Source: Gammaproteobacteria bacterium (GTDB lineage: Bacteria > Pseudomonadota > Gammaproteobacteria > Xanthomonadales > SZUA-36). From it: a DNA stretch of 32,662 nt. The notes beneath the pieces were generated by a model. It searched no databases, was not told where the DNA came from, and saw only the letters and a list, made by a program, of their open reading frames with translations. The DNA lies in NCBI GenBank assembly GCA_024275935.1, contig JAJRYF010000068.1:1-32662 (forward strand), read 5' to 3'. Positions 3,939 through 11,613 of the stretch are shown here, one piece after another; position 1 is the first letter of the stretch; every line of letters begins with the position of its first letter. A program made the translations under genes and the position numbers.

Positions 3939-4015
3939 TGGCGTCCTCGGCAGGACTCGAACCTGCAACCTGCTCCTTAGGAGGGAGCCGCGCTATCCAG
4001 TTGTGCCACGAGGAC
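3939..4015 (-). tRNA. tRNA-Arg (anticodon CCU)
   Basis: Full cloverleaf on the minus strand: acceptor arms GTCCTCG / CGAGGAC, anticodon stem GCTCC / GGAGC around the loop CTCCTAA (anticodon CCT, reading AGG), T-arm GCAGG-TTCGAGT-CCTGC, discriminator G and an encoded CCA (3939-3941). 77 nt including CCA. It ends 27 nt before the GT2 start and is preceded by a TATAAT box. Confidence 0.96.
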
Positions 4016-4028
4016 GGATAGTTGGCAG

Positions 4029-4056
4029 ATTATACAATACTTCATACTGCTGTCTC
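4029..4056 (-). promoter_or_regulatory. Candidate sigma-70 promoter of tRNA-Arg, -35 inside mobile element end
   Basis: On the minus strand, GAGACA (4051-4056), a 16-nt spacer and a perfect TATAAT (4029-4034) lie 13 bp before the tRNA 5' end. The -35 hexamer is part of the terminal inverted repeat of element copy A (CGAGACAGC), so the insertion appears to have contributed it. Confidence 0.55.
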
Positions 4057-4328
4057 GTTAACTATTTTAAGCATAAATTCTGAGTGCTCGTCTGAGACCT
4101 CCACCCGCAGGGCAGGTTTTTGCTCCTGCAAAACCTGCACTTCCGCCATCCTTGGCGGTCGGACGGGGTGAAGAGCCCCCATGGTGTATAGACCGGACAC
4201 ATGGATGGGTTTACGGCGTGTCTCAGGCGGGCGCTCAGAATTCATGCCCTCGGTGGCAAAAAGTAGTACACGCCAATACACAGTAGCGGTTATAGCCAGC
4301 AATGCGCAAAGTTAACGGGACAGCGGTG
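4045..4328. mobile_element. Non-autonomous transposable element (MITE-like), copy A
   Basis: 284 bp with imperfect terminal inverted repeats: left TACTGCTGTCTCGTTAAC, right end the complement of CACCGCTGTCCCGTTAAC. It is flanked by a perfect 11-bp direct repeat ACAATACTTCA at 4034-4044 and 4329-4339, the expected target-site duplication. No transposase is encoded. The core (4073-4245) has its own inner inverted repeats (4073-4098 and 4220-4245, 22 of 26 matching) and hairpins: AGGTTTTTGC / GCAAAACCT and CCGCCA-tcct-TGGCGG. Copy B at 11208-11585 is the same element in the opposite orientation. The element fills the gap between the CoA-transferase stop codon and tRNA-Arg. A duplication of 9-12 bp is typical of IS4-type transposition; that link is inference. 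Confidence 0.85.
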
Positions 4329-4339
4329 ACAATACTTCA

Positions 4340-10698: not shown

Positions 10699-11234
10699 GG
10701 TATTGCCCGCAAACTTGAGCCACACAAACGGCAAAAATACTGCACTTTGCCTGCTTGGATTTTATTGTGCTTACGACAACTTAGCTGGTGTTCCTGGCAG
10801 GCGCAGTGATAACTAAAACGCCTTTCCTTGCGTTGTGGCAAACCCGCAAGGTCAAACTGGTGGCAGACACTATCGTCCGCACCCAAAACCGCCATTACCT
10901 CACGCCACTCTATACCGTGGGGCTTTAGTCGACGGCGCGGATACAACACTTGCACAGCAAAGTGGCCAACCTCATGGGCAATAGTCGAATCCAAATTCTG
11001 TTTGAAATAACGCTTAAAAATGGCCACATTGTAACGAATAAAATATTTTTTACGCCGCTGACTAAACTGCCCTGCAGCCCTGCCTTTAAGATCAAAGCGA
11101 ATCTCTATATCAGGAAATTTTTTTTTGTAAGCCAGTTCCAATTTGGCAATTTCTTGAAGTGTTTTCGCCCTTACCAGCTCTTCCTGATTAAAAGATAATT
11201 CTAATATCACTGTTGTCCCGTTAATTTTGCGCAT
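10695..11234 (-). CDS. SprT-like zinc metalloprotease with start supplied by mobile element B
   Basis: 179 residues. The zinc protease motif is HEVGH (H87, E88, H91) with a third histidine in KPHGIEW (~H106), as in SprT/SPRTN proteins, and a C-terminal zinc ribbon: YHCACQEH...CRKH...FCRLCG. SPRTN relatives cut DNA-protein crosslinks; the bacterial SprT role is less settled. The first nine codons (MRKINGTTV, 11208-11234) are the end of transposable element copy B; native sequence resumes at ILELSF. Without the element and one target duplication the frame runs back to an ATG at 11619-11621 that overlaps the EamA stop. The catalytic region lies well after the altered start, so function may persist, but translational coupling to EamA is lost. 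Confidence 0.88.
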   Translation of the reverse strand: MRKINGTTVILELSFNQEELVRAKTLQEIAKLELAYKKKFPDIEIRFDLKGRAAGQFSQRRKKYFIRYNVAIFKRYFKQNLDSTIAHEVGHFAVQVLYPRRRLKPHGIEWREVMAVLGADDSVCHQFDLAGLPQRKERRFSYHCACQEHQLSCRKHNKIQAGKVQYFCRLCGSSLRAIP

Positions 11235-11585
11235 TGCCTATTAAAGCTCTTACTGTATTTGGGGTGTGTCAATTTTTCAACTTTCGAGACATGAATTCTG
11301 TGTCCGCCTGAGACACGCCGTAAACCCATCCATGTGTCCGGTCTATACACCATGGGGGCTCTTCACCCGTCCGACCGCCAAGGAATGGCGGAAGTGCAGG
11401 TTTTGCATCGTTACATGGATGTAACTTATTAGAGCAATGCAGGACGATTCCATGGATGGAATCGGTAGAATCGAGTCTGGAACAGAGATCGAGCAATTGC
11501 CGAGGAGCAAAAACCTGCCCTGCGGGTGGAGGTCTCAGGCGAGCACCCAGAATTCATACCTGAGGTAGTTAACGGGACAGCACTG
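11208..11585. mobile_element. Non-autonomous transposable element (MITE-like), copy B
   Basis: 378 bp, homologous to copy A (4045-4328) in reverse orientation. Left end CACTGTTGTCCCGTTAAT, right end the complement of CAGTGCTGTCCCGTTAAC. A perfect 9-bp duplication TTCTAATAT flanks it at 11199-11207 and 11586-11594. The core inner repeats are at 11291-11314 and 11532-11557. Relative to copy A it carries 96 extra bases (11408-11503) exactly in the loop of the AGGTTTTGC / GCAAAAACCT hairpin; this insert is itself made of hairpins, including GTTACAT-gg-ATGTAAC (11410-11425) and CGATTCCATGGATGGAATCG (11445-11464). The left end encodes the start of the sprT-like gene. No transposase is encoded. Confidence 0.85.
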
Positions 11586-11613
11586 TTCTAATATCTTACT
11601 TGTTACTGTTGCT

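Follow-up and report, generated by a model that had tools for sequence, protein, structure and literature searches.

Palindromic GGA-loop modules nested in hairpin loops in the core of a gammaproteobacterial MITE

The window, the whole stretch of 32,662 nucleotides of gammaproteobacterial DNA that was analysed, contains two MITE copies, A and B, whose cores are built from short palindromic modules placed one inside another (Table 1). These modules are units and occupy hairpin loops, and two of the insertions, the 50-bp module Y and a 20-bp IS481-type end, share the same point, GG^A, in the loops of the host module X. Our interpretation is that both elements belong to a MITE with 9-bp target duplications and that the core consists of nested modules, each of which would typically have two hairpins with GGA in or next to the loop and usually an outer stem that closes them. 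A guest module enters the apical loop of a hairpin of its host, at GG^A in the case of Y and the IS481-type end, and the stem of the host hairpin becomes the outer stem of the guest, as shown by empty and filled versions of the same loops. Read as RNA from the GGA strand, X may form a structured element that presents CsrA/RsmA-type sites. The probability that this explanation holds as a whole, from nested GGA modules in the MITE core and loop insertion to GGA-strand RNA with CsrA/RsmA-type sites, is put at about 0.6.

Table 1. Positions of the two MITE copies, their target duplications and the nested modules in the window.
Feature	Position	Strand	Remarks
Target duplication of A, left copy ACAATACTTCA	4034-4044	+	family rule 9 bp
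Element A, MITE copy	4045-4328	+	ends TACTGCTGTCTCGTTAAC / GTTAACGGGACAGCGGTG
Module X in A	4073-4245	+	outer stem 4073-4098/4220-4245 around two hairpins
Module Y in A, 50 bp	4113-4162	-	between GG (4111-4112) and A (4163), loop of X hairpin 1
IS481-type end in A, TGTATAGACCGGACACATGG, 20 bp	4185-4204	+	between GG and A, loop of X hairpin 2
Target duplication of A, right copy	4329-4339	+	
Target duplication of B, left copy TTCTAATAT	11199-11207	+	
Element B, second MITE copy	11208-11585	-	inverted relative to A
Module X in B	11291-11557	-	outer stem arms 11291-11314/11532-11557
IS481-type end in B, TGTATAGACCGGACACATGG, 20 bp	11330-11349	-	loop of X hairpin 2
Module Y in B, 50 bp plus one base	11371-11517	+	split by 96 bp; GGA loops on plus strand
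96-bp insert, Z1 + Z2	11408-11503	+	in hairpin loop of Y, TTTTGCA^GGAGCAAAA
Module Z1, first part	11408-11444	+	48 bp in total with 11493-11503
Module Z2, 48 bp	11445-11492	+	in loop of Z1 hairpin GCAATGCAGGA^GCAATTGC
Module Z1, second part	11493-11503	+	
Target duplication of B, right copy	11586-11594	+	

The family to which A and B belong meets the criteria for a MITE, namely terminal inverted repeats, target duplication, absence of coding sequence and many copies. When the draft genome (2.42 Mb in 155 contigs) was searched with the MITE end CTGTCCCGTTAAC, 62 matches with at most one mismatch were obtained, against 3 with the reversed control. The extended ends read CACTGCTGTCCCGTTAAC, the terminal inverted repeats are 18 bp long, and the commonest copy measures about 202 bp between its TGTCCC ends. 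Most of the 14 two-ended copies inspected have a 9-bp direct repeat that starts 6 bases outside TGTCCC, such as ATGATAATT, AGTAGTTGG and TTTTGATTT, with TTCTAATAT for B and ACAATACTT(CA) for A. From these ends and target duplications, the MITE itself is inferred to move by ordinary cut-and-paste type transposition. An autonomous partner transposon with the same ends was not found in the draft genome, which is broken at these repeats. Elsewhere, the X core is missing altogether from one MITE copy (L125, 381-491), lost between two CTCG repeats, and a group II intron fragment (RF02001, 66 bits; L074, 84-179) lies some 220 bp away from a MITE copy whose X core has diverged. In the window, a tRNA gene on the minus strand (3942-4015) lies 18 bases ahead of element A's target duplication; it was the sole match in the window to Rfam at gathering score.

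The centre of X in its common copy is a three-way junction composed of an outer stem, hairpin 1 (CACCCGC-ATGGAT-GCGGGTG), hairpin 2 (GAG-CC-CCCATGGATGGG-TTT) and then ACGGCG. The sequence-only reading of this DNA had described inner inverted repeats in both cores, and these indeed pair at 22 of 26 positions in A, and well in B, where the arms of 24 and 26 nt are interrupted by a 2-nt gap. It had also listed two hairpins. The second, AGGTTTTTGC/GCAAAACCT, is exact in the DNA, while the first, CCGCCA-tcct-TGGCGG, is exact in A only and has a loop one base longer in B. The 96 extra bases of B were correctly placed in the loop of the second hairpin, as their removal restores the sequence of A there. 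The cores were likewise said to be more alike than the arms; with the 96 bases removed, they are identical over 135 aligned bases, with two compensating 1-base indels, and the left and right arms are 78% and 83% identical, respectively. Nearly identical cores between arms that are 78-83% alike would be expected after gene conversion, and A and B could in principle be conversion products of one MITE, their inner differences being deletions from a longer ancestor. This is very unlikely, because the compact form of the X hairpins is the usual one, both in the genome and across genera, and modules Y, Z and W are found elsewhere as units.

The nesting could be followed by comparison of copies. Y has the sequence CAGGTTTTTGC-TCCT-GCAAAACCTG CACTT CCGCC-ATCCTT-GGCGG TCGG, and its GGA loops in A lie on the minus strand, antisense to X. 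The 96 bases, which had been taken as a set of further hairpins, consist of hairpin pieces and were resolved beyond this into two nested 48-bp pieces, Z1 and Z2, by comparison with two copies (L143 and L144) that carry Y and Z1 without Z2. In another copy (L142), a further piece, Z3, lies within the loop of Z2. A comparison of genomic copies for modules and loop insertions had been proposed as a check, and it yielded both empty and filled loops. X was found without either insert, with Y alone (L002-L004 and L006) and with just the 20 bp (L139); Z1 is present in some copies of Y and absent from others, and the same holds for Z2 in Z1. The view of the core as a separate modular unit was also upheld, since X is found independently of this MITE in at least 33 named genera of Gammaproteobacteria (including Stenotrophomonas, Xanthomonas, Marinobacter, Microbulbifer, Rheinheimera, Methylotuvimicrobium and Yersinia), and copies of Y and of Y+Z occur outside it. 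On the appropriate strand, GGA stands in or beside the loop in most of the hairpins that make up X, Y, Z1, Z2 and W. Z1 entered before GG and Z2 after GGA, and GG^A is therefore not universal as a target.

In A, B and L139, the 20-bp piece is flanked by CATGG on both sides. In a further X (L041), it occupies the equivalent position and runs on into a longer sequence similar to the one immediately preceding an annotated IS481 transposase on a Legionella plasmid (78.9% over 57 bases). The piece thus fulfils the criterion for the IS481 family, a terminal sequence next to an IS481 transposase. An insertion sequence may have entered at GG^A and later been deleted between the CATGG repeats; this is an inference, and the paired CATGG is as expected from it.

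Loop insertion was also observed in other loci and genomes. A first automatic screen of hairpin 1 over-called, with 19 inserts of which about 6 were real on inspection, and a stricter screen was therefore used, with the 3' motif and a closed outer stem as its sole criteria. It returned 121 X cores, 111 compact and 10 long, one of the latter being two adjacent copies misread as one. All nine genuine over-length cores have extra DNA in the loop of hairpin 1 and none has it in a junction; in two of them (B and L236) the loop of hairpin 2 is filled as well. Within this one screen, the earlier suggestion that the core grows by insertion in hairpin loops was supported. Three of the nine are this genome's MITE and were counted as one event. 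The other long cores belong to a Cellvibrionaceae MAG, Zobellella, two Gammaproteobacteria and a Stenotrophomonas-like genome (G106). Further nested cases were found in Methylomicrobium (L181, Y with a Z1-like piece), Stenotrophomonas geniculata (L191, W) and Saccharospirillum (L230). In an orthologous pair from the edd-eda locus of a Stenotrophomonas-like genus, L339 carries module W, of about 80 bp, in the loop where the empty X of L300 has GCGGCATGGATGCCGC; edd and eda were named by eye from the translated flanks.

The length of Y is exactly 50 bp in most copies, and its removal restores a GGA-loop hairpin in most hosts. Collapsed Y sites reach a stem score of at least 5 in 7 of 12 cases, compared with 1% of random GG positions, and an uninserted sibling, CCGCGCCAAGGATGGCGCGG (L195), has the same site. 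Since loops tolerate insertion best and the fold is under selection, random indels that survive only where the fold is unbroken might produce a similar picture, the loops being spared by selection and not targeted. We consider this unlikely. The inserts are not random, as almost all of them are further GGA-hairpin modules or IS ends, and the 50-bp Y occupies the same GG^A position across unrelated genomes. A Y-like hairpin pair was also noticed at the C-terminal end of an ISCR/IS91-type transposase frame (L052, about 1501-1542; also L034, L039 and L044). It lies just upstream of, and apparently within, the end of the frame, of which 64 aa match NF052416 (73 bits). Such a transposase is a possible vehicle for spread.

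The plain fold energy of the core was unimpressive against mononucleotide shuffles (z about -2, and -3.7 for the 96-bp insert); covariation and the comparison of copies carry the case. In an alignment of 142 distinct X copies that was fitted to the structure (A2), 93.3% of cells are paired versus 59.0% in shuffles, the double-changed cells number 1535 versus 457, and the covariation score is higher than in all 500 shuffles. A register based on Watson-Crick pairs only agrees (1398 of 1584 cells). From copy to copy, the distal outer arms show no relationship (median identity 25%), yet they are almost perfectly self-complementary, and GGA is kept in the loop of hairpin 1 in 94 of 96 compact copies while the stems vary. 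Orthologous X copies in the edd-eda intergenic region of one genus (L035 and L274-L302) have wholly different, near-perfect outer stems, which implies either very fast compensatory change or repeated replacement of stems. L333 was considered as an empty site of X in this region, with a possible target duplication, and was rejected; the locus sits within a group of relatives that carry X and seems to have lost the left arm together with X by deletion, and no insertion rule was thus obtained from it.

The pattern of hairpin 2 and its flank was found in at least 120 stretches of genome_contigs; among the matches listed, 115 were from Gammaproteobacteria and five had no class. A covariance model of X gave matches in 18 of 299 genomes of the phylum, all of them Gammaproteobacteria. 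A YPAL-type X was also seen on a viral contig (IMG/VR; L272, 6229-6254).

X is the core of the known Yersinia repeat YPAL/RU-2. The published RU-2 sequence (PMC2759123) contains X, with the hairpins gcgcc-aagga-tggcgc and cctacatggatgta; an X-type core with two GGA hairpins is what they have in common, and the whole 168-bp repeat is not. YPAL is dispersed and mobile, and its targets are at or near dyad symmetry (PMC2229807). However, it is one uniform 168-bp repeat with target duplications of 3-26 bp, whereas X here lies in an unrelated MITE with 9-bp duplications and hosts nested modules, and elsewhere it has arbitrary outer stems. X also resembles the TwoAYGGAY RNA (RF01731) in its outer stem and two hairpins with AYGGAY loops. 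No match to this model was found in the window, and the best among the copies tested reached 37.5 bits, under the gathering score of 43; in the literature examined, TwoAYGGAY is described neither as repeats nor as nesting. The Ysr224 model (RF02770) is matched above threshold by Yersinia and Sodalis copies of X, on the opposite strand, but it covers close YPAL relatives, and Stenotrophomonas-like copies remain below threshold. Outside bacteria, the GC clusters of yeast mitochondria nest in loops. Like the X modules, these clusters are short mobile palindromes that merge into larger ones (PMC4478555), but they are mitochondrial, have an AG target and lack GGA-loop modules of about 50 bp.

The outer stems of X show a strand asymmetry. 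In the Watson-Crick-only register, G.U on the GGA strand outnumbers A.C 54 to 24 (p 9e-4; in a sign test, 30 copies to 6), and G.A/A.G outnumber C.U/U.C 50 to 15. This asymmetry would reverse on the other strand, and it points to selection on RNA of the GGA strand. The SELEX consensus of CsrA is RUACARGGAUGU, with GGA preferred in loops (PMC4347634), and the hairpin 2 variant UACAUGGAUGUA differs from it at one position of the shared core. TwoAYGGAY RNA has been proposed as a CsrA ligand on the same grounds (PMC4333381). Of the genomes examined, all 23 that are X-positive have CsrA, as do 15 of the 19 that are X-negative, a comparison confounded by kinship; given how nearly universal CsrA is in the class, finding it counts only as weak evidence. 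The binding of X RNA to CsrA is an inference, and no transcript or binding data support it. In one X-rich genome (G238), nine csrA matches and eleven Y1 transposase matches were counted.

The X modules share several GGA-loop hairpins with the CsrB/RsmZ decoy RNAs, which are sRNA genes and not dispersed repeats. Nesting could, by inference, build CsrB-like decoys with more sites; however, Y runs antisense to X in all composites seen, and a single transcript would therefore not present every GGA loop. A function of X as a cis element of mRNA was rejected for lack of a sense-strand bias: X shows no preferred orientation towards its neighbouring genes (13 sense, 16 antisense, 18 convergent and 9 divergent, from crude ORF calls), and the edd-eda X is antisense to the operon. 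This lack of bias would also suit selfish palindromes at the DNA level, spread by processing of single-strand DNA or cruciforms, with GGA loops as insertion targets and without any RNA function. The insertion point at GG^A in loops fits them too, as does a loop-to-loop deletion in L145, where two X hairpins are joined at CATCCATG, which suggests that loops do recombine. On the GGA strand, the bias towards G.U rather than A.C, and towards G.A rather than C.U, would not be predicted from a strand-neutral DNA constraint, and we regard this account as possible but doubtful.

In the reading preferred here, nested GGA modules expressed on the GGA strand, the insertion step would most likely be loop recombination or template switching at shared GG, CATGG or AGGA, or would require an unidentified loop-targeting recombinase; a recombinase with a GG core is a conceivable variant. 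Some serine transposases (IS607) cross over at GG. No enzyme that inserts the modules was found. A more ambitious proposal, in which class-wide RNA modules are inserted site-specifically at GG^A in loops by a dedicated recombinase or by template switching and form nested, multi-site CsrA decoys of up to five layers, can only be advanced tentatively.

A REP-associated RAYT (TnpA-REP) enzyme had been named in the sequence-only reading as one to look for. X copies are dispersed, high-copy palindromes that frequently form inverted pairs about 100-300 bp apart (L211, L175, L263, L042, L207, L214, L216 and L170), an arrangement reminiscent of BIME/REPIN organisation, and this genome contains two matches to Y1 transposases, of which one is interrupted by stops. 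That X is a REP/BIME-type element moved by such an enzyme is nevertheless highly improbable. Y1 transposases are no commoner in X-positive (13/21) than in X-negative (13/19) genomes, and several X-rich genomes lack them altogether. Moreover, the modules are 48-90 bp long with branched folds and no GTAG tag was noted in them, whereas REP repeats are small hairpins of 20-40 bp tagged GTAG or CGTC (PMC3733652).

Neither the exact X sequences nor nested hairpin insertions in bacteria were found in the open-access literature. As far as that literature goes, the features that appear to be new are the placing of modules loop in loop, GG^A as their shared target, the RNA-strand signature and the class-wide breadth. 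The YPAL repeats, the TwoAYGGAY RNA motif and hairpin-in-hairpin repeats are hereby tied into one family that extends across the Gammaproteobacteria, and GG^A in a loop provides a precise, testable insertion point. These features suggest how mobile parts could build multi-hairpin regulatory RNAs or decoys.
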